The notes beneath the pieces were generated by a model. It searched no databases and was not told the origin of the DNA. It saw nothing but the letters and a program-made list of their open reading frames with translations. From NCBI GenBank assembly GCA_018057705.1, contig JAGPDF010000040.1, positions 1 through 43,549 of the forward strand: a stretch of 43,549 nucleotides of DNA, written 5' to 3'. A program made the position numbers and the translations under genes. Numbering within the stretch: position 1 is the first letter of the stretch; the number at the start of each line of letters is the position of its first letter. This document shows positions 10,164 to 43,426 of the stretch, one piece after another. Source of the DNA: Thermoanaerobaculia bacterium. Lineage in GTDB: Bacteria; Acidobacteriota; Thermoanaerobaculia; Multivoradales; JAGPDF01.

Positions 10164-11828
10164 TCAGGGTAGGTGACTGCTCCAGGCGTCGAGGTTCTGG
10201 GTCCCGAAGCCGTCGGAAAAGAGCGAGCCGTAGAGGATCGTCTGGGCGCCTGCATCGCCGAGGCCGTCCGCGGTCTCGAACGGCGCGCCGATCGCGAGGT
10301 CGTCGTGGCCGTCGCCGTCGAAGTCGCCGGCGGCGACCGTCCAGCCAAAGTTCTTGTGGTGCTCGTTGACGTTGCCGGGGAAGCCCTGCGAGCCGGCGAT
10401 GATCCCGCGAGCCGTCCCTGACGCGAAACCGCCGGTACAGTTCGCCATCAGCAGCGTTACATGGCCGTCCTTCCCGTCGGCGGTGGCGATCCCCTCTTCC
10501 GGCGCGCCGATCGCGAGGTCGTCGCAACCGTCGCGGTTGAAGTCGCCGGCGGCGAGCGACGCGCCGAAATGGTCGCCTTCCTGCGAGGTCTCACCCGCCG
10601 AAGGGAGCGTGCTCTGCGTGAATCGCCGCGCACGGGCCAGATCGAAACCGCCGGCGGCGCCGAAGGCGACTTTCACCTCGCCGGAGTTGACGTCGTTGCC
10701 GGATGTGCCGGCCTCCTCCTTCGGGACGCCGATCGCGAGGTCGTCGTACCCGTCGCCGTCGAAGTCGCCGGCAACGAGCACCTCTCCGAAGTCGTCGTAG
10801 GTTTCCCTCGTCCCACCGAGGTCATCGTCGTAAAAGAACAGATCGCGCGCGCCGTTCAGGCCGGTGGCGCTGCCGAAGAGGATCTGCACCGCGCCGACCT
10901 CGTCCTCCCCGACCACACCGATCGCGATGTCGGCATAGGCGTCGCCGTCGAAGTTCCCCACCGCGAGGCTGTAGCCGAACTGGTCTTGGTCTTCGCTCCC
11001 GCCGTCGACTCCGGAGGTGTCCTGGTCGATCGAGTACGCGAAATCCGAGGCGAGCCCGCCAGACCAGCCGGGCAGGATCTCGATCATGCCGGCATTGTGA
11101 CTGAAGCTGCCAAAGTCTTCGAATGCAACGCCAATGACGAGGTCGTCGAAGCCGTCGCCGTCGAAGTCGCCGCACGCGAGTGCTTCGCCGAAGCTGTCGG
11201 ATGCCTCGACATCTCCTGGAATTCCCGAAGTGTTCTGGGTGAAGAACTCGGAGCCGAATCCCGGAAAACTGCCGGCGCGGCCGTAGTGGACCTGGACCGC
11301 GCCGGCCGAACCTGTGGCGCCAAAGTCCTCTTCGGGGATCCCCACCGCGAGATCCTCGAAGCCGTCACTGTTGAAATCGCACGAGGCGAGCTGCTTGGCG
11401 CGGGGGTAGACTTCGTTGAAGTCCCCCCCACCAAACCTGTCTCCCGCCTCCGGCGCGTCGAGCCCGGCCGACTGGCGCACCAGCTTCACCGGGTCGAGGC
11501 CGATGGTTGAAAAGTACTGGCTGACGATAAACGCGCCGCCATCGGTCACGGGAGCCGTCGTCGGGCCGTCGTCGTCCGGAACTCCAGTCGCGAGATCGTC
11601 GCGGCCGTCGCCGTTGAAGTCGCCCACGGCGAAGGTCGCCCCGAAGTGATCGTTCTCCTGCACCGGGAAGGCGCCGATCGTCTGATTGCCAATCTTCTGC
11701 GCGCGGACCGGCGACAGGGATCCGGAGACCTGCGCTCCTGCCCCGGTGGCGAGCATCGCAGTCATCACCACCGAAGCGACCATGACAGACAACCCCTCGG
11801 ATCGGACATTCTGATGGTTCGTTCGCAT
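10164..11828 (-). CDS. Secreted seven-bladed FG-GAP propeller protein 2
   Basis: 554 residues; the start at 11828 has GGGAGG just upstream. The N-terminus carries a signal peptide (VMVASVVMTAMLATGAGAQ), then the paralogue-typical LSPVRAQKIGNQTIG. Seven FG-GAP repeats follow ([48 protein letters not shown] and so on), each with a Ca2+-binding DxDxDG-type loop, consistent with one propeller. The tail is LFSDGFGTQNLDAWSSHLP. It is divergent from kinase A with 170 bases between the starts, so this is the first candidate output gene of the kinase-sigma cassette. Function beyond an extracellular propeller is unknown. Confidence 0.85.
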   Translation of the reverse strand: MRTNHQNVRSEGLSVMVASVVMTAMLATGAGAQVSGSLSPVRAQKIGNQTIGAFPVQENDHFGATFAVGDFNGDGRDDLATGVPDDDGPTTAPVTDGGAFIVSQYFSTIGLDPVKLVRQSAGLDAPEAGDRFGGGDFNEVYPRAKQLASCDFNSDGFEDLAVGIPEEDFGATGSAGAVQVHYGRAGSFPGFGSEFFTQNTSGIPGDVEASDSFGEALACGDFDGDGFDDLVIGVAFEDFGSFSHNAGMIEILPGWSGGLASDFAYSIDQDTSGVDGGSEDQDQFGYSLAVGNFDGDAYADIAIGVVGEDEVGAVQILFGSATGLNGARDLFFYDDDLGGTRETYDDFGEVLVAGDFDGDGYDDLAIGVPKEEAGTSGNDVNSGEVKVAFGAAGGFDLARARRFTQSTLPSAGETSQEGDHFGASLAAGDFNRDGCDDLAIGAPEEGIATADGKDGHVTLLMANCTGGFASGTARGIIAGSQGFPGNVNEHHKNFGWTVAAGDFDGDGHDDLAIGAPFETADGLGDAGAQTILYGSLFSDGFGTQNLDAWSSHLP

Positions 11829-11983
11829 CGATCCTCCCTCGCTGGCACCGAGCCCGGTACGCCGATTCCGCCGGCCTGGAAAAGGTGCGGCTTCTGCATG
11901 GATCGAGAACGAGAGGGAGAAGGCGACAGGAGGGAGCGAAATGCCTCGGAGCTAGGTCACCGCGTCGGGATCCGCGCTTCGAC

Positions 11984-11989
11984 TACGAT
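11984..11989 (+). promoter_or_regulatory. Putative -10 box for a leaderless kinase A transcript
   Basis: TACGAT lies 9 bases before the GTG start at 11999. The same TACGAT within GAtTACGATcc occurs before the paralogous kinase at 22890. No Shine-Dalgarno is present. No convincing -35 element was seen. Confidence 0.4.
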
Positions 11990-11998
11990 TCCCAGACC

Positions 11999-14779
11999 GT
12001 GGCCTTCGTCGACGAGTCGTTTTGGAGTCGGCTGTCGCCCCTTCTCGATCAGGCGCTCGAGCTCGAGGGGGAGCCGCGCGACCAGTTCGTAGGGTCGCTG
12101 CGAGAGCGCGACCCCGCGCTCGCCGAGGCGCTCGAACGGCAGCTCGCGGAGCACGATCACGCCCTGCGCACGGGGTTCCTGGATCTGCCGGCGGGGGCGA
12201 CGCCGGTTTCGCTCGAGGGCCGGACCTTCGGCGCCTACGAGCTCGTCGAGCGCATCGGCGCCGGCGGCATGGGCACGGTCTGGCGGGCGCGACGCAACGA
12301 CGGCCGTTTCGAAGGCGACGTCGCGGTGAAGCTCCTCCACCCGTCGCTCGTCGAGGAGCGCGGATCCGAACGCTTCCGCAGCGAGGGTTCGATCCTGTCG
12401 CGACTCTCCCACGCCGGCATCGCGCGTCTCTACGACGCCGGCCTGTCGGCGGCCGGACAGCCGTTCCTCGTCCTCGAGCTCGTCGAAGGCCTCCGGATCG
12501 ACCGCTTCGCCGACGCGCATCGGCTGCCGGTGCGCGCCCGGCTGGAGCTGTTTCTCCAGATCGCCGACGCGGTCGCCTACGCCCACTCGAACCTCGTCGT
12601 GCACCGCGATCTCAAGCCCTCGAACATCCTCGTCGATCGGGCCGGACAGGCCAAACTGCTCGACTTCGGAATCGCGACTCTCGTCGATCAGGTTTCCGGC
12701 CTGGCGGTCGGCCGCACCGTCACGACCGGGCGTGCGCTCACCCCGGAGTACGCCGCGCCGGAACAGCTCGAAGGTGGCGCGATCACCACCGCCACCGATG
12801 TCTACGCGCTCGGCGTGCTGCTCTATGAGCTCCTGACTGGCGAACATCCGGTGGCTCGCGCCGACACTTCGCCAGCCGACCTCGTGCGCGCCATCACCAC
12901 CGGCGCGACGATACGGATGAGCGAGCGTGTGCGACGGAGCCCCACGGAGCCCCGCGCCGCAAACGCCCACGCTGAAGACGAGGGCGATGCCGAGCCTTCG
13001 CGTTTCGAGGCACGATCGACGACGCCGGATCGGCTCGCGCGCGCGCTCGCGGGCGACCTCGACACGATCGTCGCCAAGGCGCTCAAGCGAGCGGTCGCCG
13101 AGCGCTACCCCACCGTCACGGAGCTCGCCGACGACCTGCGGCGTCATCTGCGCAATCTTCCGGTGCGGGCGCGACCCGACAGCCTCGGCTACCGCGTGCG
13201 CAAGCTCGTCGCGCGCCACCGCGTCGAGGTCGGCGCGGCGGGCCTGGTCGTCGTCGCCCTCCTCGCAGCCACGGGGATCAGCTGGCGGCAGGCGCGGGCC
13301 TCGGCCGCCGAGCGCGACCGCGCGCTCGAGGAGCTGCGCCGGGCTGAAATCACCAACGATCTTTCCGGCTTCCTGATCTCCGAGGCCAACCCCGAAGGAC
13401 TCCCCATTTCGAAGACGGATCTCCTGGCGCGGGCCGAGGCGATGATCGAGGGGCGCTTCGCCGACAATCCAGCGCTTCAGGCCCACATGCTCGTTCTGCT
13501 CTCGAGCCGGTACTACGAGATCTCCGACTACCCGCCCTGGCGGAAGGTGCTGACACGCGCCTACGAGCTTGCCAGCCGGACTTCCGACCCGCGGTTGCGC
13601 GCCGTGGCGGCTTGCGAGCTCGCGATGGCGGTAACCGACGAGGAGCCCGAGCGGGCGCAGGCACTTCTCGCCCAGGCCAACGTCGCGCTCGCCGCCCAGG
13701 ACCCTGCCGCCGCCGCCGCCGAGCTCGCCCGTTGCCGGCTCGACGAGGCGATCGTCGCCAGCTGGGGCGGCCAGTTCGAGCGCGCGGTCGCCGCCGCCGA
13801 GGAGTCGCTGCGCTACGAGGCCTCGCGTCCGGGCCCTTCCGGCCGCGGCGCCGAAGCGCTCAACACCCTCGGGCTCGCCCAGGGACAGCTGGGCCGATTC
13901 GAGGCGGCCAACGCGACGTTCGAGAGACTGCTTTCCGTCCTCGCCGCGGAGCGGCGAACCCGCACGCGGTTCGCCGCGACCGCCCGTCACAACTGGACGC
14001 TCGCCCTCGTCAATGCCGGCCAGGTAAAGCGCGCGCTCGCCGAGTCCGACACGCTTGTCGCCATCACCCGGGAGCTCGGCGGCGGGCCGGTCTCGCCGTA
14101 CAAGCTCTCGTCCCGCGCGAGCCTGCTGTCGTACGCCGGGCGACACGAAGAGGCGATCGCCGCCGCCACCGAGGCGATCCGCAACCTCTCCCGAACGACG
14201 GGATCGCAGGTCCCGTTCTGGATCCACTGCATCGCCGCTCGCGTCCAGGCCCAGGCGGGACGGTTCGACGACGCCGACCTCGCGCTCGCCGAGATGGACC
14301 GCGCTTTCGCGGCGATCCCTTCCCCGCCCGCCGGGCTCGCCGGCATGCGCGAGCTCTACCGCGCCCGGGCGATGGTGGACCGCGACGCCGGCGCCGCACT
14401 CGCCCTCGCCCGGCGCGCGTTCGAGCTCCTCGAGCGCGAGAAGCAGCCGGCTCGCGATCTGCTGCAGGCGCTGCTGATCGCGGCGCGCGCCGAGAACGAC
14501 CTCGGGAATGGAGCCGCGGCCCGAGCCGACGCCGCGCGCGCCCTCGAGATGGCACGGGCTGGCCTCGGCGGCTTCGCCCATTCGCGCGAGCTCGGCCTCG
14601 CCGAGCTCGAAGCCGCGCGGGCCGCCGCTCTCGCCGGAGACCTCACCGCCGCGCGGGCCGGATTCGAGCGCGCCGTCGACAACCTGCGGGATGCCGTCGG
14701 CACCGACGCGCCCGAGACGCTCCGCGCCGAGCGCCAGGCAGCGGCGTTCGCAGGCGGATCCCCTTCGCCCGCGGGCTAG
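11999..14779 (+). CDS. Transmembrane Ser/Thr protein kinase (PknB type) with TPR C-terminal region (kinase A)
   Basis: 926 residues from the GTG at 11999, chosen because it makes the first 230 residues align without gaps to kinase B. Residues 1-75 are a helical N-domain common in such kinases. The kinase domain (about 80-350) shows GAGGMGTV (87-94), VAVK (Lys111), HRDLKPSN (Asp204), DFG (222-224) and APEQ. A single transmembrane helix (VGAAGLVVVALLAATGI) sits near 409-428, and the rest is a long alanine-rich helical region with TPR-like pairs. The kinase is therefore cytoplasmic and N-terminal. The TPR half follows the only membrane span, so it would be outside unless the helix is only membrane-associated. 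The gene converges on the ECF sigma gene, sharing CTAG. Confidence 0.9.
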   Translation: MAFVDESFWSRLSPLLDQALELEGEPRDQFVGSLRERDPALAEALERQLAEHDHALRTGFLDLPAGATPVSLEGRTFGAYELVERIGAGGMGTVWRARRNDGRFEGDVAVKLLHPSLVEERGSERFRSEGSILSRLSHAGIARLYDAGLSAAGQPFLVLELVEGLRIDRFADAHRLPVRARLELFLQIADAVAYAHSNLVVHRDLKPSNILVDRAGQAKLLDFGIATLVDQVSGLAVGRTVTTGRALTPEYAAPEQLEGGAITTATDVYALGVLLYELLTGEHPVARADTSPADLVRAITTGATIRMSERVRRSPTEPRAANAHAEDEGDAEPSRFEARSTTPDRLARALAGDLDTIVAKALKRAVAERYPTVTELADDLRRHLRNLPVRARPDSLGYRVRKLVARHRVEVGAAGLVVVALLAATGISWRQARASAAERDRALEELRRAEITNDLSGFLISEANPEGLPISKTDLLARAEAMIEGRFADNPALQAHMLVLLSSRYYEISDYPPWRKVLTRAYELASRTSDPRLRAVAACELAMAVTDEEPERAQALLAQANVALAAQDPAAAAAELARCRLDEAIVASWGGQFERAVAAAEESLRYEASRPGPSGRGAEALNTLGLAQGQLGRFEAANATFERLLSVLAAERRTRTRFAATARHNWTLALVNAGQVKRALAESDTLVAITRELGGGPVSPYKLSSRASLLSYAGRHEEAIAAATEAIRNLSRTTGSQVPFWIHCIAARVQAQAGRFDDADLALAEMDRAFAAIPSPPAGLAGMRELYRARAMVDRDAGAALALARRAFELLEREKQPARDLLQALLIAARAENDLGNGAAARADAARALEMARAGLGGFAHSRELGLAELEAARAAALAGDLTAARAGFERAVDNLRDAVGTDAPETLRAERQAAAFAGGSPSPAG

Positions 14780-15345
14780 GTTCTGTCGAGGGCGCCGTGC
14801 AGGAGCAGGCGCGCCTTCGCCCAGTCGCGCTGCACGGTCCGCTCGGTGACGCCGCGCATTGCCGCCACTTCCGCGAAGGTGAAACCGCAGAAGAAGGCGA
14901 GGTCGACGAGCTCGGCGAGCGCCGGCTCGAGCCGCGCGAGATCCGCGAGGGCGTCGTTCAGCTGTTCGACCTCTTCGGGCGAGCCCACCGACGCCAGCAT
15001 CGCCTCCGCGACCGGAACGAACGTCTGGTCGATGCCGCGCTTCTCCGTGTACCGCGAGCGGATCGCATCGATGACGAGCCCGCGCATGGCGCGCGCAGCG
15101 TAGCCCAGGAATCGGCTCTCGTCCGGAAACTGCAGCCCCTCCCGGTGCGCGAAGCCGAGGTAGGCCTCGTGCAGGAGCGTCGTCGTGTTCCAGGTCATCG
15201 CGCCGCGGGCGCGCGCGACGTGAGTGTGAGCGAGACGGTGAAGCTCGTCATAGAGCAGCGCAAAGAGCTCCTCGCGCGCGGAGGCGTCGCCGCGCTCGGC
15301 GCGCTGGAAGACCACTTGCACCGAGGCGGACGATTCCTGGCCCAT
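14776..15345 (-). CDS. ECF RNA polymerase sigma factor, Sig-70_X6/TIGR02999 type, kinase-linked (sigma A)
   Basis: 189 residues with regions 2 and 4 of an ECF sigma factor. Region 2 includes LLYDELHRLAH and TWNTTTLLHEAYLG, and region 4 ends in GVTERTVQRDWAKARLLLH, the -35-recognition helix. The acidic DxED residues usual in region 2.2 are absent and the run Asn53-Thr54-Thr55-Thr56 stands there instead. In kinase-dependent ECF groups (for example EcfP with PknT in Vibrio) a threonine in this region is phosphorylated to allow core binding. Here the adjacent convergent gene encodes such a kinase. No anti-sigma factor is visible. The ATG has no Shine-Dalgarno, and TAGCAT lies 8 bases before it. 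Confidence 0.9.
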   Translation of the reverse strand: MGQESSASVQVVFQRAERGDASAREELFALLYDELHRLAHTHVARARGAMTWNTTTLLHEAYLGFAHREGLQFPDESRFLGYAARAMRGLVIDAIRSRYTEKRGIDQTFVPVAEAMLASVGSPEEVEQLNDALADLARLEPALAELVDLAFFCGFTFAEVAAMRGVTERTVQRDWAKARLLLHGALDRT

Positions 15346-17807: not shown

Positions 17808-19457
17808 ATGCGCAAATCTCCCCAACGTCCCGCATCCCGTTTCGCCCTGGCCGGGATGCTGGCCCTGCTCGCCTGCCTCTGGAGCGCCGGGCGCGCCAAC
17901 GCCGCGGCCTCGGTCGGGCTCTCGACCGTGCAGAGCCGCCTCCTCGCCAACCCCTCGATCGCCCAGTGGACGGCCGAAGCCGGCGACTCCTTCGCCGACG
18001 TGCTCGCCACCGGCGACTTCAACGGTGATGGCGCCGACGACCTCGCGGTGGGCATCCCCAACGACAACGGCCTGCACGGCGCGACCGCCAACAGCGGACT
18101 CGTCGTCGTCTGGTATGGCACTCCCGGAGAAGGACTGCAATCAGTGGTCTGGAACGTCCTGCGGATTGCGATCCCGCAGGAGAACGCCCGCTTCGGCGCT
18201 GCGCTCGCCGCCGGCGACTTCGATGGCGACGGCTTCGACGACCTCGCGGTAGGGGCGCCAGGCTTCGACTTCACCACCGGCAATCAAGACACCGCAAACT
18301 ACGGGATGGTCAGGATTCACCGCGGCAGCGCCACCGGGCTCGAGGAGATCAGCCCCGAGACGCTGGATTCGCGCGGCTACGGCGGAGCGCAACAGCACTT
18401 CGGTCAGAGCCTCGCGGTCGGCGACTTCAACGGCGACTTCCTCGACGACCTCGCGGTCGGAGCGCCGCAGGCGAACTGGGCGATCGACGGCACGACCGTC
18501 CCCGGCGGAGTTGTCTACGTCCAGCACGGCCCGGATCTCATCTCCACGCAGTGGTACCGCTTCTCGCAGTACATGGACGAGATCCCCGACATTTTCGAAG
18601 CGAACGATCTCTTCGGCTTCTCCCTCGCCGTGGGCAACTTCAACCGCGACGGCATCTGCTCGCCGGCCTGCGCCAACTACGACGATCTCGCCATCGGGGT
18701 TCCGGGAGAGGATGGACAGGGCAAAGTCCTCGTGCTCTTCGGCAGCGAGTGGAGTCTGCTCGCCGGCAGCGCGCACTGGTTCGGCGAAGGGGAGCTCGGC
18801 GGAACCGCTGGCCCGGGGCAGTTCGGACGCACGCTCGCGACCGGCGACTTCGACGGCGATCTGGCCGACGATCTGGCGGTCGGCGCGCCGTTCAAGTCGG
18901 TGAGTGGGGCAGCGGCCGCAGGGCAGGTCACCACCCTCTTCGGCAGCGTGATCGCCATCAACGGCTCCTGGTTCGACGTCGCCGCCACCCGCTGGCTGAC
19001 GCAGACGACGTTCTACGGCGCGGGCGCGAACGCCGCCAGCGATCAATTCGGCTGGAGCCTCGCCAGCGGCGACTTCGATCGCGACGGCGTCGATGACCTC
19101 GCGGTCGGGCATATCGGCGAGGACGTGGTCCCCGGCGGCAGCAACCTCGGCGCCTTCACGATTCTCACCGGGAGTGGCGCGAACCCTCGGGGGCCTGGCC
19201 GCACCTTTCGCCTCTTCGGCGCCGGCTATGCCGGCATGCCGATCCCGTGGGCCGATTGGGACAACTTCGGCTGGTCTCTCGCGACGGGCGACTTCGACGG
19301 CAACCTTCACGACGACCTCGTCGTGGGAGTCCCATTTCACGATGTCGCGAGCGTCGGCACCGAAGTCGGCGCCGCGGTGGTGCTGCGAGGGGCGCTCTTC
19401 GCCGACAGCCTCGACTGGGACGGCAGCCTCCTCTTCTGGTCCGAAGTGGCGCCCTGA
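17808..19457 (+). CDS. Secreted seven-bladed FG-GAP propeller protein 3
   Basis: 549 residues. A signal peptide (FALAGMLALLACLWSAGRANA) is followed by VGLSTVQSRLLANPSIAQW and seven FG-GAP repeats. Repeat 4 is interrupted: the calcium loop reads NFNRDGICSPACANYDDLAIG, with an inserted segment holding two cysteines that could form a disulfide. The tail LFADSLDWDGSLLFWSEVAP is the most divergent version of the DGFE motif (DSLD). The start has no obvious Shine-Dalgarno; the ATG follows GTAGTGGGAT directly. It stands alone on the plus strand, and the VOC gene downstream converges on it. Confidence 0.85.
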   Translation: MRKSPQRPASRFALAGMLALLACLWSAGRANAAASVGLSTVQSRLLANPSIAQWTAEAGDSFADVLATGDFNGDGADDLAVGIPNDNGLHGATANSGLVVVWYGTPGEGLQSVVWNVLRIAIPQENARFGAALAAGDFDGDGFDDLAVGAPGFDFTTGNQDTANYGMVRIHRGSATGLEEISPETLDSRGYGGAQQHFGQSLAVGDFNGDFLDDLAVGAPQANWAIDGTTVPGGVVYVQHGPDLISTQWYRFSQYMDEIPDIFEANDLFGFSLAVGNFNRDGICSPACANYDDLAIGVPGEDGQGKVLVLFGSEWSLLAGSAHWFGEGELGGTAGPGQFGRTLATGDFDGDLADDLAVGAPFKSVSGAAAAGQVTTLFGSVIAINGSWFDVAATRWLTQTTFYGAGANAASDQFGWSLASGDFDRDGVDDLAVGHIGEDVVPGGSNLGAFTILTGSGANPRGPGRTFRLFGAGYAGMPIPWADWDNFGWSLATGDFDGNLHDDLVVGVPFHDVASVGTEVGAAVVLRGALFADSLDWDGSLLFWSEVAP

Positions 19458-20230: not shown

Positions 20231-21880
20231 TCACGGCGCGGGGGTCCAGTAGTCCGCGTTGGCGGACTCGAAGCCGTCGGCGAAGGCAGCGCCCGGCAGG
20301 ACGATCGCCGCGCCTGCGGCGTCGATTCCGGAGACGACCTCGAGAGGCAGCCCGCTGGCGAGGTCGTCGAAACCGTCGCCGTCGAAGTCGCCGGCGACGA
20401 GAGCCGAACCGAAGCCGCCGCGCGAAGTCTGCGGCGGCTGGCCGGGCAGCCCCTCTGCGACCGGGGCGAAGCGCCGGACGCCGCCGCCGAGCCCCCCGGC
20501 GTTGCCGGCGATCACGGTCGTGGCACCGTGGTCGAAGTGCTCCGGCACGGCCGACGGGTTCTCTCCCGGATGCCCAATCGCGAGGTCGTCGAAGCCGTCG
20601 CCGTCGAAATCGCCGGTCGCCAACGCTTGGCCGAAGCGGTCGCCGGTCTCGCTCGCTGGAGGGTCGAGAATCATGTCCTCGGCGAAGTGGGAGACGTGGC
20701 CCGGGGTCGGGATCGTCGGCCCGCCGTAGACGACGACCACCTGGCCCGCCGCATCGACGACGCCGGTCGGAGCATCGAACGTGTCGAAGGGGATGCCGAT
20801 GACCAGGTCGTCGAAGCCGTCGTCATCGAAGTCGCCGAAGGCTAGAGCGAGCGCGAAGCGATCGGCGAGATCGGGGTCGCCTCCCAGCGCCCCATCGGTA
20901 AGGAGCATCGAACCCGCCGCGACGAGTCCGGCGGGCCCACCGAAAACGACGTGCGCGATTCCGGCCGCGATGGCCTCGCCGGGGACGCCGATCGCGAGAT
21001 CGTCGAAGCCATCGCCGTCGAGATCTCCCGCCGCCAGAGCGTAGGCGAACTGATCGAAACCGTCGGGCTCGCCCGGCAGGCCGGTTCCGAGCTGGTCGAA
21101 GGCCTGCGACGCGGCGGGGGCAAGCCCCGTGGCCGAACCGGGGATCGCCACCGCCCAGCCCGCCTTCGCTGCGCCGTTCAGGGCCTCGCCGGGGGCGCCG
21201 ATCGCCAGGTCGGCGAAGCCGTCGGCGTCGAAGTCGCCACAGGCGAGCGCCCCGCCGAAGCGATCCTCGACCTCGGCGCCATCCGGGATACCGATCGTGT
21301 CCTGGGTGTAGAGGCCGGCGCCGCTCGTGACCGGCCCACCGGGCCGACCGCTGTAGGTGAAGACGGCGCCCGCGGCCGACGTCGCGCCGACCGACTCGCC
21401 CGGAGCACCGACCGCGAGGTCGTCGAAGCCGTCACCGTCGAAATCGCAGGCGGCGAGGGCGTAGCCGTGGGAATCGAACGGCTCGAAGCCGCTGCCGGTC
21501 TGGGACAGGAGGCGCGGAGTCGACCCGGCGAGAAGCCCCGTCGCGTGGCCGAAGAAGACGATGACGCTACCGCTGCCCGGCACCGGCGCGCCGATCGGCC
21601 CGGAATCTCCGGGCACGCCGACCGCGAGATCCTCGCGGCCGTCGCCGTCGAAGTCTCCGGTCGCGAAGGCGTGTCCGAAGGCGTCGTCTGCCTGGACGCC
21701 CGTGGCGCCGATCGCCGGATCGGGAAGGTAGATCGCCCCAACGGTGGAGAGCCCGACACTCTCGGCGTCGGCGAACGCGAGAGCGGTAACGAGCAGAAGC
21801 GCGAGCGCTGCGATCGGGACTGTGTCGCGCAGCGCCGTGACGGATCTCCCGCCACGGCGCCTCGGGATGCGCCCGGTCAT
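20231..21880 (-). CDS. Secreted seven-bladed FG-GAP propeller protein 4
   Basis: 549 residues. The start at 21880 overlaps the stop of mddA as ATGA, so translation is probably coupled. A basic N-terminus and signal peptide ([19 protein letters not shown]) lead to [18 protein letters not shown] and seven FG-GAP repeats, all with intact DxDxDG-type loops ([48 protein letters not shown] ...). The tail is [17 protein letters not shown]. It is closest to proteins 5 and 6 (shared CDFDGDGF in repeat 2 and GHPGEN-like text in repeat 6), so these three are recent duplicates. Confidence 0.85.
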
Positions 21881-22653: not shown

Positions 22654-22872
22654 GACTCTCTCCTCCTGGATCGAAGCGTGAACGACGCGCGCACGGCGCG
22701 AACCGACGCGGCCGGAGGTCGGATCCGCCGGCTCATCGAGATGTATCGAGATCGGGGTGGGCGAGCCGCCAGTGGAGACTGTCGCGAGCGCTCCGGGCGG
22801 GTCCGACGAAGGTGATGGACCGCAGGCGCCCCTTCGGGGGAGGGGGGGCCGCGGCGGGTTTCGGGTTTGGAT

Positions 22873-22878
22873 TACGAT
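22873..22878 (+). promoter_or_regulatory. Putative -10 box of kinase B
   Basis: TACGAT ends 11 bases before the ATG at 22890. It matches the element before kinase A in sequence and near-position, while the rest of the upstream regions differ. No Shine-Dalgarno is seen. Confidence 0.35.
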
Positions 22879-22889
22879 CCACCCTTCGT

Positions 22890-25616
22890 ATGGGCCTTCT
22901 CGACGACGCGCTCTGGCGGCGGCTCTCGCCGCTGCTCGACCGTGCCCTCGAGCTCTCCTCGCAGGAGCGCTCGGCGCTGGTCGCGACGTTGCTCGACTCG
23001 GAGCCCGACCTCGCGGCCGCCCTGGAAGAGGCGCTGGCAGTCCACGAGCGGGCGGCCGCCTCCGGCTTCCTCGCGTCTGCGGCACGCACGCCGGCGCGAT
23101 CGCTCGCCGGTCAGAACCTCGGCTCCTACCAACTGATCGAGCGCATCGGCGCCGGGGGTATGGGCAGCGTCTGGCGCGCAACGCGGGCCGATGGCCGCTT
23201 CGAAGGTGAGGTCGCGGTGAAGCTCCTCCATCCGTCCCTGATCGAGGGCGAGGGGGCCGAGCGCTTCCGCCGTGAGGGAACGATCCTCTCCCGCCTGACC
23301 CACCCCGGAATCGCGCGGCTTTACGACGCCGGCGTGTCGGAGGCCGGGCAGCCGTACCTCGTCCTCGAGTTGGTCGACGGCGAACCCATCGACCGCTACG
23401 CCGACGCGCGCCGGCTCGACGTCGGCGCGCGCCTGGTCCTCTTCCTGCAGGTCGCCGAGGCGGTGGCTTCCGCCCACTCGAGCCTCGTGGTGCATCGCGA
23501 CCTCAAGCCGTCGAACATTCTGGTCGACCGTGACGGACGGGTGAAGCTGCTCGACTTCGGCATCGCAACGCTGCTCGACGCCGCCTCCGGCGAGGCCAGC
23601 CTCCGCACGCAGACGGCGGCGCGCGCGCTCACGCCGCAGTATGCGGCCCCCGAGCAGCTCGAGGGGGGGCCGATCACCACCGCCGTCGACGTCTACGCCC
23701 TCGGCGTATTGCTCTACGAGTTGCTGACCGGCGAGCATCCGACGACTCGGGCACGGGCCTCGACAGCGGAGCTCGTTCGCGCGATCACGACAGCCGATCC
23801 GCCGCGGATGAGCGAGCGCATCCGCCGCGCCGGGAATCGAGGCGGCGAAGCCGACCGCTTCACGCTGCGCGCACCCACCCGCGAACAGCTGGCTCGCACC
23901 CTGGCGGGCGACCTCGACACCATCGTCACCAAGGCCCTCAAGAGAGACCCGGCGGCGCGCTACCTCACCGTCGCGGCTTTCGCCGACGACCTGCGGCGCC
24001 ACCTTCACGACCAGCCGGTGCGGGCGCGCCGCGACAGCTTCGGCTATCGGGTGCGCAAGCTCGTCGCGCGCCACCGTCTCGAGGTCGCCGCCGCCGTGGT
24101 CGTGACTGCGTCGCTCGTGGCCTCGACCGCCATCGCCGTGCGGCAGGCGCGCCGCTCCGAACACCAGCGGGATCGCGCGCTCGAGGAGCTCTATCGGGCC
24201 GAGATCACCAACGACCTCTCCGCCTTTCTCCTCTCCGAGGCGACCCCTGGAGCCGAGCCCATCCGCAAGAGCGAGGTGCTGCGCCGCGGCGAAGAGATGA
24301 TCGAGGGGCGCTTTGCCGGAGCGCCCGACCTGCAGGCGCACATGCTCCTCGTCCTCTCCGAGCGCTATTACGAGACTTCGGAGTTCGCGAGCTGGCGCCG
24401 AACTCTCGAACGCGCCTACGAGCGCTCCCGGGAGACGAGCGACCCGCGCCTGCGCGCGGTCGCCGGGTGCGAGCTCGCCGTCTCGCTGGTGGACCGCGAC
24501 ATGGACCTTTCCCGGCAGCTGCTCGAGGAGTCCCTGCGGGAGCTCCAAGGCGCCAGCGAGCCGGCGGCAGAGCTTGCCCGTTGCCGGCTCGCCGAGGCGA
24601 TCGTCGCGCGCCGGCTCGGCGAGCTCGACCGGGCGGTCGCGGCCGCAGAGGCTGCGCTCGCCCTCGAGCGCGCACGCCCCGGGCCGCCGGGCCGGGGCGC
24701 CAACGCCTTGAATGCGCTCGCGCTCATCCAGACGGAGCTCGGCCGCTACGACGCGGCGAGCCGAACCTACGAGCAACTCTTCGAGCTCTTCCGGTCGCAG
24801 CGGCGAGAACGGACCCGAACCGCGGCCACCCTCCACCACAACTGGGCCGTCGCTCTGCAGAGCGCGGGTCAGATCCGTCGCGCGCTTCTCGAGTCGGAGC
24901 GCGGCGTGGCCCTGGCGCGCGAGGTCGACCCCGGGACGGGGCCGTCTCCGAATCAGCTCTGGGTCCTGGGAAGTGCGCTCTCTCTGGCCGGGCGCCACGC
25001 CGAAGCGCTCGCCGCCATCGACGAGGCCGTCGAGCGGGCCCGCAGCTCGGAGGGAGCGGCAATCTCGTTCTGGGCGCTCGTCTATGCCGGCCGGTTGTAC
25101 GCGGAAGCCGGAATGCCGGGGGCAGCCGACGAGCGCTTCGCGGAGCTCGATCGGCTCACCGCTGCGAGCCCCGCACTTCCCGCCTGGTTCACTGGCTGGC
25201 GAGAGTGGTACGGCGCCGCGGCCGAGGTCGAGCGCGGGAGTCCGGCGCGAGCGGTCGAGCTCGCGGCCCGCGCGCTCGCGACCTTCGAGGCAGCGAAACG
25301 GCCGCGCGAGATCCCGCCGACGCGGCTGCTGCTGGCGCGCGCTTTCAACGATCTCGGTCGATTCGAGGAGGCGCAAGCCCAGGCCGAACCGGCCCTGGCC
25401 GCGGCTCGTGAGCGGCTGGGAGACTTCTCGCACTCGCGCGGCGTCGGTCTCGCCGAGCTCGAGCTGGCCCGGGCGGCGGCCGGTTCCGGAGATCCGGTCC
25501 GGGCCCGCGCGGCGATCGCACGGGCCCTCGATCACTTGCGAGCCTCGATGGGGGACGACGCCCCGGAGACGCGGCGGGCGCTGGCGCTCCATGCAGCGCT
25601 CACCGCGCCGGGCTAG
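22890..25616 (+). CDS. Transmembrane Ser/Thr protein kinase (PknB type) with TPR C-terminal region (kinase B)
   Basis: 908 residues from the ATG at 22890; residues 1-230 align with kinase A without a gap. Visible are GAGGMGSV (87-94), VAVK (Lys111), HRDLKPSN (Asp204), DFG (222-224), a transmembrane helix near 397-416 ([18 protein letters not shown]) and a TPR-like C-terminal half. It has the residues needed for activity. The juxtamembrane linker is shorter than in kinase A, which has an extra acidic stretch around 320-335. The gene converges on FG-GAP protein 5 with only 8 bases between the stops; sigma B lies just beyond. It is most likely the partner kinase of sigma B. Confidence 0.9.
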
Positions 25617-25624
25617 CGCCGCGC

Positions 25625-27289
25625 CTACGGATCGATCGCCCAGGGGGCGAGGGGCACCTCGTGCTCGAAGCCGTCGGCGAACTGGGCGCCGGGAAGTACG
25701 GTCACCGTACCCGCTCCGGTAACGCCCTCGATCGTCTCGTGCGGAGCGCCGATCGCCAGGTCGGCGTAACCGTCGCCGTCGAAATCCCCGGCGGCCAGCG
25801 CGCGGCCGAGCTCCCGCCCCGGCGAACCCGGCGGCGGCGGTCCCGGGAAGCCGTCAGCCCCGGCGGCGAAGAGTCGACGGCCCGCCGTGGGCGCGGGTCC
25901 GTCGGCGGTGCCGACCATCACCGTAACGGCGCCGTCCTGCGCGAAACCGATCGCCTCTCCGGAGTGGCCGGCGGCGAAGTCTGCGCGGCCGTCGCCGTTG
26001 AAGTCGGCCACCGCGAGCGCCAGTCCGAACCGGTCGTTCCCCTCGCTCGCCCCCGGAAAGTGGATGTTGTTCTCGGCCCAGTAGGAGACCGGTCCGGGGG
26101 GCGTGACCGATCCACGGACGACCGCGACCTGCCCGGTCTCGACGATCGGGCCACCGCTCGAAGCGAACGTCTCGAGCGGAATGCCCACCACCAGATCGTG
26201 GAACCCATCGCCGTCGAGATCGCCGAACGCCAGCGTGAGCCCGAAGTTGTCTCCCGCCTCCGTCAGTCCGCCGAGAGTCGCGTCGGTGAAATCCAGCGAT
26301 TCGAATCCGGTGAGGCCGGCCAACGCGCCGAAGAGCACGTGGACCGCTCCCGCGGAGAGCTCCTCGCCCGGCACCCCGATCGCAAGGTCGGCGAACCCGT
26401 CGCCGTCGAAGTCACCGGCCGCGAGGCTCGCTCCGAACTGGTCGTTCGGCTCCGGATCGTCAGCGACGTCCGGTCCGCCCTGGGTGAAGGTGTGAGTTCC
26501 CGTCGCCGAGAGACCAGCGGCCGACCCACGAAGGACGGCCACCCAGCCGGCGTTCACGGCGGCCCCGACGTCCTCGGACGGCGCGCCGATCGCCAGGTCG
26601 GCGAAGCCGTCGTTGTCGAAGTCGCCGCAGGCGAGCGCAGCGCCGAAGGCGTCGCCCGCCTCCGCGGTATCGGCGATGCCGACGGTGGCCTGCGTGAACA
26701 GCGCAAAGGCCCCCACCACGGGCCCACCGGCGTCACCCGGGTAGACGAAGACGGCGCCCGCCGCGTCGATCGCTCCGAGGCCCTCGCCGGGCGCGCCGAC
26801 GGCGAGGTCGGCGAACCCGTCGCCGTCGAAGTCACAGATCGCCAGCGCGTGGCCGTGCCGATCGTTGACCTCGTATCCGGAGCCCGACTGGGCGATCCGA
26901 CGCGGCGGCGCTCCTGCGATTCCGGTGTCGCCGGCCCCGAAGTAGACCGACACGCCGCCGCTGTTGGCCACCGGCGCCGCCAAGGGACCGTCATCCTGCG
27001 GGATTCCGACCGCCAGGTCGTCGAAACCGTCGCCGTCGAGATCTCCCGCAGCGAGTGCCTGCGCGAATCGGTCGTTCGTCTGCGGACCCAGATCGCCGAT
27101 CGTCACGTTCGCCAGTCGGTGAGAACGCACCGGCGAGAGGCCGACGTTCAGGTCTTGGCCGGAGAGTTCGACGGCGAGCAACGTAGCGCCCAGGACAAGG
27201 CAGCGGCCGGCCGTGCGGACCCCTCGATGCCGCGCGCCGTGCGTTCGCGGGCCCCGCGACGAGGGCTGGCCTCGGAAGTTTCGATGCAT
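25625..27289 (-). CDS. Secreted seven-bladed FG-GAP propeller protein 5
   Basis: 554 residues from the ATG at 27289, preceded by AAGGAG at about 8 bases; longer in-frame starts upstream lack such a site. A basic N-terminus and hydrophobic segment (CLVLGATLLAVELSG) are followed by LNVGLSPVRSHRLANVTIG, then seven FG-GAP repeats. Repeat 6 is degenerate (ADFNGDGRADFAAGHSGE). The tail is FADGFEHEVPLAPWAIDP. The gene lies between kinase B and sigma B, where the first cassette has nothing, and follows sigma B on the same strand with 121 bases between them, so it could be in its transcript or regulon. Confidence 0.85.
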   Translation of the reverse strand: MHRNFRGQPSSRGPRTHGARHRGVRTAGRCLVLGATLLAVELSGQDLNVGLSPVRSHRLANVTIGDLGPQTNDRFAQALAAGDLDGDGFDDLAVGIPQDDGPLAAPVANSGGVSVYFGAGDTGIAGAPPRRIAQSGSGYEVNDRHGHALAICDFDGDGFADLAVGAPGEGLGAIDAAGAVFVYPGDAGGPVVGAFALFTQATVGIADTAEAGDAFGAALACGDFDNDGFADLAIGAPSEDVGAAVNAGWVAVLRGSAAGLSATGTHTFTQGGPDVADDPEPNDQFGASLAAGDFDGDGFADLAIGVPGEELSAGAVHVLFGALAGLTGFESLDFTDATLGGLTEAGDNFGLTLAFGDLDGDGFHDLVVGIPLETFASSGGPIVETGQVAVVRGSVTPPGPVSYWAENNIHFPGASEGNDRFGLALAVADFNGDGRADFAAGHSGEAIGFAQDGAVTVMVGTADGPAPTAGRRLFAAGADGFPGPPPPGSPGRELGRALAAGDFDGDGYADLAIGAPHETIEGVTGAGTVTVLPGAQFADGFEHEVPLAPWAIDP

Positions 27290-27410: not shown

Positions 27411-27980
27411 TCAGGTGCGCTCGAGGGCGGTGTGGAGCAGCAGCCGCGCTTTCGCCCAGTCGCGCTGCACGGTGCGTTCGGAGACGCCGCGCAGGTCCGC
27501 GATCTCGGCGAGAGTGAAACCGCAGAAGAAGGAGAGGTCGACGAGCTCGGCGAGCGCCGGCTCGAGATTCGCCAGGTCGGCAAGTGCGTCGCCCAGGCGC
27601 TCCACCTCATCCGGCGAGCCGGCGGCGGCGATCGCCGCCTCGGCGAGCGGGACGAAGGCGACGTCGCCACCATGCCGGCGCGTGCGGCGGGCCCGAATCT
27701 CGTCGATCACCAACCCGCGCATGGCGCGCGCCGCGTAGCCCAGGAAGCGGTTCTCGTCGACGAAGGCCAGCCCCTCGCGACGCGAAATGCCGAGATAGGC
27801 CTCGTGCACGAGCGTCGTCGTGTTCCAGGTCATCGCGCCGCGCGCTCGTGCGACGTTGGCATGGGCGAGGCGATGGAGCTCGTCGTAGAGCAGCGTGAAG
27901 AGCGACTCGCGCGCCGCTGCGTCGCCGCCTTCGGCGCGCTCGAAGATCTGCCGCAGCGACGAGTCGTTTTCCGGGCTCAC
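27411..27980 (-). CDS. ECF RNA polymerase sigma factor, Sig-70_X6/TIGR02999 type, kinase-linked (sigma B)
   Basis: 189 residues from the GTG at 27980, a start that gives exactly the same length as sigma A and gap-free alignment. Region 2 (LLYDELHRLAH, TWNTTTLVHEAYLG, GYAARAMRGLVIDEIR) and region 4 (ADLRGVSERTVQRDWAKARL) are complete. Thr54-Thr56 replace the acidic residues of region 2.2 as in sigma A. The strong identity of the region 4 helix (TVQRDWAKARLLLH in both) suggests the two factors read very similar -35 elements. TAGCAT lies 8 bases before the start with no Shine-Dalgarno. FG-GAP genes flank it on both sides on the same strand. Confidence 0.9.
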   Translation of the reverse strand: MSPENDSSLRQIFERAEGGDAAARESLFTLLYDELHRLAHANVARARGAMTWNTTTLVHEAYLGISRREGLAFVDENRFLGYAARAMRGLVIDEIRARRTRRHGGDVAFVPLAEAAIAAAGSPDEVERLGDALADLANLEPALAELVDLSFFCGFTLAEIADLRGVSERTVQRDWAKARLLLHTALERT

Positions 27981-28044: not shown

Positions 28045-29613
28045 TCAGCGCGAGTCCTGCCAGTACCCCGAGTCCTCGGACTCGAAACCGTCGGCGAACA
28101 GCGCGCCCGGGAGGACCACCGCCGATCCGGCAAATTCGACACCGTCGACGGTCGCATAGGGAGCGCCGACGCCGAGATCGACGAAACCGTCGCCGTCGAA
28201 GTCGCCCGCGGCCAGGGAGAGTGCGAAGCCGTTCGGCGGGCTGCCAGGGACTCCGTCGAAGGCGGAGGCGAAGCGCCGCCGGCGGGAGATGTCGACTCCA
28301 TCCCCCGAGCCGCCGACCACGGTGAACGCCCCGGAGACCGCATTTTCGCCGGGATGGCCGATCACGAGCTCGTCGAAGGCGTCGCCGTCGAAGTCCCCTG
28401 CCGCGAGGGTCGCTCCGAAGAAGTCACTCGCCTCGCTCGCGCCCTGGAGATTGTCCTCCCGCAGGTGCTGGACGAGGCCGATCGCGGGAACTCCGGCATG
28501 GCCATAGGCGATGACGATCTGACCGGCTTCCGCGAGCGTGCCGCCGCCCAGCACCGGGAGGTCTTCGGACGGGACCCCGACGAGGAGCTCGTCGAACGCG
28601 TCGCCGTTCAGGTTGCCGAATGCGACTGCGGCGCCGAACCGGTCGCCGGGCTCCGTGAAGCCACCGAGCAGGAAGTCGTCGAGCACCGCGGAGCCCGACG
28701 GGGTGAGGCCGCTGGCGCCGCCGAACAGCACGTGCAGAACGCCGGCCCCGAGGTCTTCGCCCGGCGCGCCCACCGCCAGCTCGTCGAAGCCATCGCCGTT
28801 CCAGTCGCCGGCGGCGAGCGCGAGACCGAAGCCGTCGGTGGTCTCGGGCTCGCCGGGGAGCTCGAACTGGCTCAAACCGAAGGCGGCGGCGGCCTCCGGT
28901 CCGGAGGCCGAGCCGGGAATCGCCACCACCCACCCCGCAGCCTGCTGACCGTTCAGCGTCTCGCCGGGCGCGCCGATCACGAGGTCGTCGAAGCCGTCGT
29001 GGTCGAAGTCGCCGCTCGTGATCGCGAATCCGAACCGGTCGCCCGCTTCGGCGCCCTCCGGGATGCCGACCGTCTCCTGCGTGAAGAGCAGAAAGTCGTC
29101 GTGGAACGGGCCGGCCGCGGACCCGGGATAGACGAACACGGCCCCGGCGTCGTCCAGCGCTCCGATCGCTTCGCTCGGCGCGCCGACCGCGAGGTCGTCG
29201 AAGCCGTCGCCATCGAAGTCGCCGGCGCAGAGGGCAAGCCCGTGGTGGTCGACCGACTCGAGACCACCGCCGAACTGAGCCAGCCGGCGCGGCGCGGCCG
29301 TTGCGAAGGTTCCCTCGGCGTCACCGAAGTAGACGATGACAGCGCCGCTCTGAAAGACCGGCGCGGCCAGGAGCCCCGAGTCGTAGGGAATCCCGACGGC
29401 GAGGTCGTCGCGACCGTCGCCGTTGAAGTCGCCGGCGGCGAGGGCATGGGCGAAGCCGTCGCCCTCCTGCGGACCCGTGTTGCCGATCGTCGGGTTCTCG
29501 AGGAACCGGGAGCGGACGGGCGAAAGGCCGACTCCGGCAGCCTGAAGGCCGCCCAGCATCGCAATCCATCCCAGACAGCACAGTACTGCAGCTCTCTCCG
29601 AAGTGGGTCGCAT
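28045..29613 (-). CDS. Secreted seven-bladed FG-GAP propeller protein 6
   Basis: 522 residues. A short signal peptide (AAVLCCLGWIAMLGGLQAAG) leads directly into VGLSPVRSRFLENPTIG and seven FG-GAP repeats ([112 protein letters not shown]). The tail is LFADGFESEDSGYWQDSR. GAGGTG precedes the ATG. Sigma B begins 64 bases after its stop on the same strand, so sigma B could also be read from this gene's transcript. Confidence 0.85.
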   Translation of the reverse strand: MRPTSERAAVLCCLGWIAMLGGLQAAGVGLSPVRSRFLENPTIGNTGPQEGDGFAHALAAGDFNGDGRDDLAVGIPYDSGLLAAPVFQSGAVIVYFGDAEGTFATAAPRRLAQFGGGLESVDHHGLALCAGDFDGDGFDDLAVGAPSEAIGALDDAGAVFVYPGSAAGPFHDDFLLFTQETVGIPEGAEAGDRFGFAITSGDFDHDGFDDLVIGAPGETLNGQQAAGWVVAIPGSASGPEAAAAFGLSQFELPGEPETTDGFGLALAAGDWNGDGFDELAVGAPGEDLGAGVLHVLFGGASGLTPSGSAVLDDFLLGGFTEPGDRFGAAVAFGNLNGDAFDELLVGVPSEDLPVLGGGTLAEAGQIVIAYGHAGVPAIGLVQHLREDNLQGASEASDFFGATLAAGDFDGDAFDELVIGHPGENAVSGAFTVVGGSGDGVDISRRRRFASAFDGVPGSPPNGFALSLAAGDFDGDGFVDLGVGAPYATVDGVEFAGSAVVLPGALFADGFESEDSGYWQDSR

Positions 29614-38668: not shown

Positions 38669-39568
38669 TCAGGTCGCGAGCGGCGGCGGCTCGCCGGCGA
38701 GCCGCCGCCGGCGGACGGCGCGCGGCACGAGCCCGTGAGCCGGAGAGAAGAAGAAGGCGAGCGCGAACAGCAGACCGGCCACCGTCGCCATCGAGCCGGC
38801 GATGGAGGCGTCGAGCGACCGCGCCAGGGCGTAGCCGCCCAGGGTCGAGGCGACACCGCAGGCGACCGCGATCGCGATCATCCGGCCGAGTCGATCGGTC
38901 AGAAGATACGCCGTCGAAGGCGGCACGACGAGGAGCGCCACGACCAGAATCGCGCCCACCGATTCGAAGGCTCCGACGACGGTGAACGAAACCGCGCCCA
39001 TGAGGAGGTAGTGCAGGAGGACGGGGGAGAATCCGAGCGTCGCGGCGAGCTCCGGGTCGAAGGTCGAGAGCTTGAGCTCTTTCCACAGGAGCGCCACGAA
39101 CAGGACGATCGCAGCGAGAAGCGCGCCGTTCATCCACAGCGCGCGCGGTCCCATCGAACGCTCGCCCACCAGCCAGAGATCCCAGGGGGCATAGGCGATC
39201 TCGCCGTAGAGCACGCAGTCGAGATCGAGATCGACCTGCCCGGCGTAGCGGCTGATCAGGATCACGCCGACCGAGAACAGCGCCGGGAAGACGACGCCGA
39301 TCGAGGCATCCTCGGCGAGCCGGCGCGAGCGCGCGAGCAGCTCGACGGCGAAAACGGTGAACAGCCCGAGCGCGCCGGCGCCGATCAACATCGGCAGCGG
39401 CGACCGGCTGCCGGTGAGCAGGAAGGCGAGGACGATGCCGGGCAGCACGGCGTGGCTGATCGCGTCGCCGAGGAGCGCCATCTTCCGCAGCACGAGGAAG
39501 CAGCCCAGAATCGCCGTCGAAGCCGCGACGAGCGAACCGACGAGGAGGATGACGACCGTCGGGTTCAT
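38669..39568 (-). CDS. Metal ABC transporter permease (TroD/ZnuB type)
   Basis: 299 residues with eight or nine membrane helices of the ABC-3 family (LGCFLVLRKMALLGDAISHAVLPGIVLAFL, SRRLAEDASIGVVFPALFSVGVILISR, VVGAFESVGAILVVALLVVPPSTAYLL). The first of these contains the family motif LRKMALLGDAISHA. Its ATG overlaps the stop of the preceding permease gene as ATGA, so the two are translationally coupled. It is the last gene of the transporter operon and probably forms a heterodimeric channel with the fused permease. Unlike its partner it has no regulatory domain. Confidence 0.9.
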   Translation of the reverse strand: MNPTVVILLVGSLVAASTAILGCFLVLRKMALLGDAISHAVLPGIVLAFLLTGSRSPLPMLIGAGALGLFTVFAVELLARSRRLAEDASIGVVFPALFSVGVILISRYAGQVDLDLDCVLYGEIAYAPWDLWLVGERSMGPRALWMNGALLAAIVLFVALLWKELKLSTFDPELAATLGFSPVLLHYLLMGAVSFTVVGAFESVGAILVVALLVVPPSTAYLLTDRLGRMIAIAVACGVASTLGGYALARSLDASIAGSMATVAGLLFALAFFFSPAHGLVPRAVRRRRLAGEPPPLAT

Positions 39569-40866
39569 TGGCCGCTCCCGGCGAGCGCGCGAGCCGGGGC
39601 GTGGGTGCGCGGGATCGCCCGACCGTGGGGATCGTGCGACGGATAGCCGAGCTTGGCGTCGAGCTCCTCGAGGGTCTCGTCCGACAGGGCGTGCTCCATG
39701 GTCTCGGCGTCGCGGTGGAGGTGGTCGGCCGGGAGGCGCAGGCGCTCCGCGAGATAGGTCTCCCAGAGGCGATGCTTCCGCACCACGCGCTCGGCCTCGA
39801 TCCGCCCGGCGGCGGTCAGGTCGAGATCGCCGCCGTCGCGGGCCACGAAGCCGCGACGGGCGAGGCCGCGCGCGGTGTGCGCGAGCTCGGCGGCGCGGCT
39901 GCCGCGCTTGCCCATCAGGATCGGCACCGGTACGAGGGCGCCGGGCTTGCCCTCGCGCTCGGCTTCGAGCCAGAGGTCCTTCAGCAGGTTCTCGGCGCGG
40001 ATGCGGCGGCGCAGGCTGCGCTCCCGCCCGAAGGCGCGCAGCAGGCCGCGCTGCGGCGCGAAGAAGAGCGAGACGAGCAACAGGGCGCTCGAAGCGAGGA
40101 CGATCGCCGGGCCGGTGGGCAGCGCATCGACGCTGGCGCTGGCGAGCGCACCGGCCGCGGCCGCGAGCGCGCCGATGCCGGCCGAGAGCACCACCATCGT
40201 CCCGAAACGATCGGTCCATTGCCGCGCGGCGGCGGCCGGCGTCACGAGCGTCGCGATCATCAGCACCACGCCGACGGTCTGGAGGCCGACGACCACCGTC
40301 ACGACCAGGGCCGCCGTGAGCACGATCTCGAGCGGCCCGGTCGGCAGGCCGATCGAGCCGGCGAAGCCGCGGTCGAACGTCACCAGCTTGAGCTCTTTCC
40401 AGAACAGGGCGATGGTGGCGATCACCACGGTGCCGACGATCGCCATGAGGACGATGTCCTTGCGCATGAGCGCGGCGGCCTGCCCGAACAGGAACTTGTC
40501 GAGGCCGCTCTGGTTGCCGGCCGGGAGCTTCTGGATGTGGGTGAGCAGCACGATTCCGAAGCCGAAGAAGACCGAGAGGACGATTCCGATCGCGGCATCC
40601 TCCTTGATGCGCGAGTAGCGCGCGATCCCGAGCACCGCGAGGGCGCCCACGATGCCCGACACGAGCGCTCCGCCAAGGAGTACCAGTGGGCTCTTCGACA
40701 GCGTGAGCAGGAAGGCGAGCCCGACGCCGGGGAGCGCCGCGTGAGCTAGCGCGTCGCCGAGCAGGCTCTGCCGCCGGAGGAGCGCGAAGGCGCCGAGGGT
40801 GCCGCCGATCGCCCCCAGGAGGACGGAGCCGGCGACGACGTTCTGTGCGGAGAAGGAGAGCGACAT
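39565..40866 (-). CDS. Metal ABC transporter permease fused to a DtxR/MntR-type domain (TroC type)
   Basis: 433 residues. Residues 1-285 are an ABC-3 permease (LRRQSLLGDALAHAALPGVGLAFL, RIKEDAAIGIVLSVFFGFGIVLL). Residues about 290-433 match the winged helix and metal-binding/dimerisation domains of DtxR regulators. The metal residues of DtxR are kept with exact spacing: His365, Glu369, His384, Glu388 (Cys102 in DtxR), Glu391, His392, and the closing GYPSHDPHGRAIP. The domain therefore probably binds Mn2+/Fe2+ at the cytoplasmic face and may gate transport or bind DNA. Fusions of this type are known in several phyla (recollection). It starts 10 bases after the ATPase gene and overlaps the next permease by 4. 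Confidence 0.9.
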   Translation of the reverse strand: MSLSFSAQNVVAGSVLLGAIGGTLGAFALLRRQSLLGDALAHAALPGVGLAFLLTLSKSPLVLLGGALVSGIVGALAVLGIARYSRIKEDAAIGIVLSVFFGFGIVLLTHIQKLPAGNQSGLDKFLFGQAAALMRKDIVLMAIVGTVVIATIALFWKELKLVTFDRGFAGSIGLPTGPLEIVLTAALVVTVVVGLQTVGVVLMIATLVTPAAAARQWTDRFGTMVVLSAGIGALAAAAGALASASVDALPTGPAIVLASSALLLVSLFFAPQRGLLRAFGRERSLRRRIRAENLLKDLWLEAEREGKPGALVPVPILMGKRGSRAAELAHTARGLARRGFVARDGGDLDLTAAGRIEAERVVRKHRLWETYLAERLRLPADHLHRDAETMEHALSDETLEELDAKLGYPSHDPHGRAIPRTHAPARALAGSGQ

Positions 40867-40876
40867 GCGTGCCGCC

Positions 40877-41713
40877 TCAGCGTCCCGGACCGGGGCGTTC
40901 GACGCTTCCGGCCGCGGCGCGCGGGCGCTGCTCGAGGTAGGCCGTCGCGGCCTGCTGAAGGAGCGTCAGCCGGCCACCGTAGGTACCGTGGAGGTTCTCC
41001 GGTGTGAAGGTCGTCTCGACCGGACCGGCGGCGACGAGGCGAAGGTTGAGCAGCACCACCCAGTCGAAGTACTCGGGCACCGTCTGCAGATCGTGGTGCA
41101 CAGCGACGACCGTTCGTCCGGCGGCCCGCAGGTCCTTGAGCAGCGACACGATGGCGCGCTCGGTCGTCGCATCGACGCCGGCGAACGGCTCGTCCATGAG
41201 ATAGAGGCGCGCCTCCTGCGCCAGCGCGCGGGCGAGGAAGACGCGCTGCTGCTGGCCGCCGGAGAGCTGCGAGATCTGCCGCCCGGCGAGATCACGGATG
41301 CCGACCTTGTGCAGGCAGTCGAGCGCGCGGGCACGGTCTTTCGCTCCGGGGCGGCGGAACCAGCCGAGTCGGCCGTAGGTTCCCATCGTGACCACGTCGA
41401 GCGCGCTGGTGGGAAAGTCCCAGTCGACGCTCTCGCGCTGCGGCACGTAGCCCACCCAGGAGCGCCGGCTCTCGGCCGGCTCGCCGAAGATGCGCACCCA
41501 TCCCGCAACCGGCTTCACCAGGCCGAGAACGCTCTTGAGCAGAGTCGACTTCCCGGCGCCGTTCGGGCCGACGACCGCGATCAGCTTGCCTTCGGGCAGG
41601 GCGAGATCGACATCCCAGAGCACCGGCTGCGTGCGGTAGGCGACGGTCAGATCGTGAACTTCGATCGCCGGCAGAGGCGGCGCGGCTTGTGCGCCGGCGG
41701 CCAGGGAGCTCAC
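40877..41713 (-). CDS. Metal ABC transporter ATPase (TroB/ZnuC type)
   Basis: 278 residues from a GTG at 41713 that overlaps the stop of the binding-protein gene as GTGA. It has Walker A (GPNGAGKST), Q-loop ([12 protein letters not shown]), signature (LSGGQQQR), Walker B (RLYLMDEPF), and the switch histidine (AVHHDL). The text [25 protein letters not shown] is typical of Mn/Zn/Fe chelate importers. It powers uptake through the two permeases downstream. Confidence 0.95.
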
Positions 41714-42651: not shown

Positions 42652-42657
42652 ATCAAA

Positions 42658-42686
42658 AGTATGCTCTCGACATGACAAGAAGTCAA
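42658..42686 (-). promoter_or_regulatory. Promoter of the metal transporter operon
   Basis: On the minus strand TTGACT, a 17-base spacer and CATACT, followed by 7 bases and the ATG. Transcription would begin at or within a base or two of the start codon. Confidence 0.6.
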
Positions 42687-42688: not shown

Positions 42689-42738
42689 TGGTGCCGCATT
42701 TCCTTCCCCCCACTCTCTTTCGGGATAGCCTCCCCGCG

Positions 42739-43416: not shown

Positions 43417-43426
43417 GATCCGGCGC

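Follow-up and report, generated by a model that had tools for sequence, protein, structure and literature searches.

Sigma A, an ECF sigma factor encoded in the window (the whole stretch of 43,549 nucleotides that was analysed, from a Thermoanaerobaculia bacterium of the Acidobacteriota), is probably an ECF43-like sigma factor dependent on phosphorylation, the kinase encoded tail to tail with it acting on Thr55 in region 2.2. Thr55 can be named as the single residue of first interest. The features concerned are:

14776..15345, minus strand: sigma A, an ECF sigma factor of 189 aa (TIGR02999 / PF07638)
15178..15186, minus strand: codons of Thr54-Thr55-Thr56 (ACG ACG ACG), part of region 2.2, where the predicted helix 54-69 begins
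15184-15186, minus strand: codon of Thr54 of sigma A (ACG)
15181..15183, minus strand: codon of Thr55 (ACG), equivalent of EcfK T51 and most likely candidate phospho-acceptor
15178..15180, minus strand: codon of Thr56 (ACG), at the position of a near-invariant Asp in ordinary sigma factors; clade-specific possible second acceptor
11885..14779, plus strand: kinase 1, with an N-terminal extension, a Hanks-type kinase domain, one transmembrane segment and a TPR region
14776..14779: palindromic CTAG overlap of the two tail-to-tail genes, containing the stop codons of sigma A and kinase 1

The matches of sigma A to TIGR02999 (145.9 bits, cut-off 126.15) and PF07638 (121.1 bits), models that are wider than ECF43, agree with the ECF family named in the preliminary description, and the protein is of the two-domain ECF type. 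The acidic residues of ECF region 2.2 contact the RNA polymerase beta-prime clamp. The motif of sigma A in this region is TWNTTTLLHEAYL, with N53-T54-T55-T56 at the four positions where ordinary sigma factors of the genome read DAED-like; these N-T-T-T positions are free of acid and a later Glu60 is retained. The control consisted of the 30 out of 32 Sigma70_r2 matches of the same genome that had a locus, aligned with sigma A over region 2. Of these 30 ordinary sigma factors, 29 carry D or E at the fourth motif position and 18 at the third, so the acids are truly replaced in sigma A. The replacement of the acids by Thr-Thr-Thr had already been proposed in the preliminary description, whose coordinates and Thr54-56 numbering are likewise correct, the codons all being ACG. 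Its further argument, that a phosphothreonine supplies the missing charge, matches what the available parts of two reports describe for the ECF43 proteins EcfP and EcfK (PMC8999054, PMC13147305).

The register of the motif was established in two ways. A profile of 32 relatives aligned to SigL of M. tuberculosis (6dv9, in complex with the polymerase) places Thr55 on the E of QAED, and the EcfK residues Gln49, Thr51, Glu52 and His55, as given in the available text of PMC13147305, are spaced like Asn53, Thr55, Thr56 and His59 of sigma A. Since alignment and spacing agree, Thr55 is the equivalent of EcfK T51; it also corresponds to the second Thr of the STTA motif quoted for EcfP in the accessible part of PMC8999054. 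In the predicted structure of sigma A (mean pLDDT 79.8), residues 54-69 form a helix of which Asn53 would be the cap and Thr54-56 the first turn. The matches of this model to solved structures cover mainly residues 97-189 and barely the motif-bearing sigma2 part.

The conservation of the motif was studied in relatives drawn from public genomes, the window's genome, its class and 12 further genomes, together with their surroundings; 199 sigma matches above 80 bits gave 186 distinct sequences, 183 of them with a readable motif. Among these, 166 carry T at the third position (Thr55), 4 carry S and 13 another residue, and Thr55 belongs to the nine invariant columns of an alignment of 32 sequences and 197 columns, so that a Thr at this place is no matter of chance. 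The second position (Thr54) varies freely (T 73, P 69, A 32), and the fourth (Thr56) is most often A (A 118, T 14, S 11, acid 17). The preliminary description had put forward Thr54-56 together as acceptors. This is right in kind and too broad: Thr55 stands, as it is conserved and aligns with the phosphorylated residue of the known systems, Thr54 is not interchangeable with it, and Thr56 may be a second acceptor, although as a trait it is confined to the clade of sigma A. The exact triplet occurs in only three of the 183 relatives (sigma A, its paralogue sigma B and locus L031) and as such is mostly an accident of lineage. The loss of acid is ordinary for the family, 125 of the 183 having none at any of the four positions.

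When the four motif columns are left out of the tree (quick search), sigma A and sigma B fall within a clade of 16 of the 183 relatives (SH-aLRT 99), with members from Acidobacteriota and Pseudomonadota. The third position is T in all 16 and the fourth is T or S in all 16 (14 T, 2 S), so in this clade, where no member has an acid in the motif, hydroxyl residues stand in for the E as well as the D of DAED. Of the 167 sequences outside it, 9 have S at the fourth position and none has T; the Thr56 trait is thus specific to the clade of sigma A. At the position of Thr54, 13 of the clade's 16 sequences carry A, P or V. A kinase domain lies within 3 kb of 11 members; as for the others, the kinase of sigma B is 3.6 kb away, L031 and L033 have the C-terminal part of a kinase on a cut contig, L231 has no kinase within 4.9 kb, and L234 is cut by the contig end. 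One may speculate that these are kinase-dependent sigma factors with two adjacent phospho-acceptors, Thr55 and Thr56, whose activity would be graded or two-step according to whether one or two phosphates stand at the clamp contact, but this is rather unlikely. If the second hydroxyl position were phosphorylated as well, it would make a two-phosphate dial at the polymerase contact of a sigma factor. A full-text literature search found no paper on such a double-hydroxyl subgroup, and it is this subgroup, with a second hydroxyl residue beside the first, that is new; the mechanism itself is known from other bacteria.

The kinase encoded tail to tail was taken as the obvious partner in the preliminary description, a choice well supported by the four-base overlap and by genomic comparisons. 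Counted from its first start codon, kinase 1 is 964 aa long, but it may in fact begin further downstream. It carries the catalytic motifs, including the glycine loop and APEQ, a single hydrophobic segment near residue 447 and a TPR match beyond it. A kinase domain is found within 3 kb of 157 of the 183 sigma factors (12 are without, 14 are cut by contig ends), downstream on the same strand in 121 of the 157 and, as for sigma A, on the 3' side in opposite orientation in 12. Of the 26 strong PF07638 matches in this genome, 20 lie within 3 kb of a kinase domain (17 of them within 600 bases), and three of the remaining six lie near contig ends. L031, whose sigma factor is 90% identical to sigma A, retains the tail-to-tail order with a kinase fragment 88% identical. 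The 157 pairs show correlated sigma and kinase distances (r=0.27; the highest value in 2000 permutations was 0.18), and so do 20 pairs from this genome (r=0.44; 0 of 5000); the pair of sigma B at 3.6 kb was added to this test by hand, and the close kinship of the A and B pairs raises the correlation. Finally, the kinase of L036, encoded beside a betaproteobacterial relative of sigma A, finds kinase 2 (340 bits) and kinase 1 (310 bits) as the first two of its 77 matches in the window's genome, the next reaching 266 bits, a result that is independent of position in the window.

About 12 kb from sigma A lies the paralogous pair, with its neighbours:

27411..27980, minus strand: sigma B, a sigma A paralogue that shares its NTTT motif (at 27813-27821) and 76% identity in the aligned portion
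22812..25616, plus strand: kinase 2, a kinase 1 paralogue whose domain lies 3.6 kb from that of sigma B
25658..27214, minus strand: FG-GAP repeat protein between sigma B and kinase 2, a possible target
28048..29613, minus strand: FG-GAP repeat protein directly upstream of sigma B, a possible target

Sigma B is thus flanked by two FG-GAP repeat genes on its own strand, and more of these genes flank both modules, five proteins in all being encoded around them (10167-11828, 17808-19454, 20234-21766, 25658-27214 and 28048-29613). By eye, several of them end in a similar DGFE...W tail. FG-GAP genes related to those of the window were seen in L031 and in none of the 30 other loci of public-genome relatives; their membership of the regulon is therefore only a guess. 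Elsewhere in the window, at 38669-43428, an ABC transporter set (two permeases, an ATPase and a binding protein) was recognized by eye beside a DtxR-like regulator and is probably a metal uptake locus. The 5.1 Mb genome as a whole has 26 strong matches to PF07638 and 78 to Pkinase (some of them split), a large expansion of this type of signalling.

Around the absent acid, the conserved Thr55 and the linked, co-varying kinase, which are all observed, the phosphorylation, its effect and its signal may be envisaged as follows. Sigma A lacks the region 2.2 acids that dock on the beta-prime clamp. Kinase 1, in the membrane, would phosphorylate Thr55 once its TPR-bearing outer part receives a signal. 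By analogy with EcfP and EcfK, the phosphate would bring charge back to the N-terminal turn of helix 54-69, that is, at the end of the helix where ordinary sigma factors present an acid to the clamp, and sigma A would thereby become able to bind the core polymerase. Thr56, at the near-invariant Asp position, may act as a further acceptor or belong to the helix start, and sigma B with kinase 2 would form a paralogous pair of the same kind.

The relatives that depart from this pattern leave room for other readings. All 17 relatives without Thr at the acceptor position adjoin a kinase, and 13 of them have no Ser there either (L271, L252, L119, L114, L178, L123 and L221, and further L202, L116, L224, L109, L105 and L128). 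A pattern search of 396 genomes gave 106 places with the Thr form and 12 with the form without S/T, for which only codons beginning with G or C were covered; one of the 12 (L315) holds no sigma factor, two repeat earlier rows and nine are new. Nine of these 11 acceptor-less sigma factors (the two repeats included) also adjoin a kinase. Beside sigma factors without the Thr, the kinase must have some other function or act elsewhere. Conversely, all 12 unlinked sigma factors retain the Thr, so linkage is not diagnostic, and kinase linkage was rejected as a predictor of the acceptor. A compensation of the lost acceptor by charge was considered as well. Acid at the other three motif positions is found in 11 of the 13 first-set relatives without an S/T acceptor vs 47 of 170 with one (Fisher p = 7e-5), in 4 of the nine new sequences, and in 15 of 22 vs 47 of 170 when pooled; a tree-aware test could draw on no more than 3 independent pairs with branch support and was not significant. 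These raw counts are suggestive and, lacking support after tree correction or in the new sample, are not taken as a claim.

Acceptor-less sigma factors beside kinases, unlinked ones with Thr and the rarity of Ser give room for a Thr55 that is mainly structural, Asn53 capping helix 54-69 and the contacts to the clamp being uncharged, with the kinase acting elsewhere on sigma A or on another target. The helix predicted in the model and the preference for Thr over Ser (166 vs 4) also fit a role at the helix start, and the T51A variant of EcfK works in vivo according to the available text of PMC13147305. Against this, the phosphosites mapped in the two members that have been studied, EcfP and EcfK, fall on this position, EcfK T51E is described as constitutively active without the kinase (PMC13147305), and the position is acidic in 18 of the 30 control sigma factors; a mainly structural Thr55 is accordingly regarded as unlikely. 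EcfK also has a second site, T106, in the sigma2-sigma4 linker, redundant with T51 in the accessible part of PMC13147305. With T51A functional and T106 as an alternative, an absent phosphate on Thr54-56 alone, which the preliminary description would have taken as refutation, might not silence sigma A. The main switch could then be a linker phosphosite, with Thr55 secondary, and linker column 111 is indeed S or T in 95 of 181 relatives. Yet this S/T-rich column is Pro in sigma A and sigma B alike, the nearby Thr108 of sigma A is Ala in sigma B, and relatives without the region 2.2 acceptor are no richer in S/T at column 111 than those with it (11 of 22 vs 89 of 170), so that a linker switch seems distinctly improbable. 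Only a little less doubtful is a reading in which kinase 1 is a mere neighbour and sigma A is phosphorylated by kinase 2 or by some other kinase of this genome, with its 78 Pkinase matches (some split). The identical motif in sigma A and sigma B makes crosstalk plausible, but the order conserved in L031, the correlated distances and the top ranking of kinases 1 and 2 for the L036 kinase all speak against this reading. Phosphorylation of Thr55 by kinase 1 is thus preferred.

This reading would carry into the Acidobacteriota a mechanism shown in a few Proteobacteria, and the genome studied here alone has 26 strong family matches; a full-text literature search found no paper on this mechanism in Acidobacteria. 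The acceptor-less, kinase-linked relatives offer a natural test of kinase roles beyond the region 2.2 site.

From its family models, motif and kinase neighbour, sigma A would be classed as ECF43-like; no anti-sigma gene lies beside it, the scanned neighbours being the kinase, DUF2177, PD40 and FG-GAP proteins. With ECF43 it shares the replaced DAED acids, a Thr at the acceptor position of the QTTA consensus and a Ser/Thr kinase gene nearby (kinase 1, with the four-base overlap). As far as the groups are described in the available part of PMC8999054, ECF59, ECF61, ECF62, ECF217 and ECF283 likewise have a kinase gene nearby and no anti-sigma factor, but they carry a DAED-like motif that sigma A lacks. 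The closest comparisons are with the two ECF43 systems. In the accessible text on EcfK-PknS of Xanthomonas citri (PMC13147305), PknS has the layout of kinase 1, namely an N-terminal extension, a kinase domain, one transmembrane segment and TPR repeats, the phosphosite T51 corresponds to Thr55, and the acceptor is present in 88% of ECF43. EcfK retains Glu52 (QATE) where sigma A has Thr56, and its linker site T106 would face a Pro in sigma A at column 111, the match of this column to T106 being uncertain. EcfP-PknT of Vibrio parahaemolyticus resembles sigma A in its acid-free region 2.2 and nearby kinase gene, as far as described (PMC8999054). There, the second Thr of STTA is phosphorylated by the kinase encoded nearby, and Thr55 is the equivalent candidate in sigma A; EcfP has Ala at the fourth position, whereas sigma A, with NTTT, has an extra Thr.
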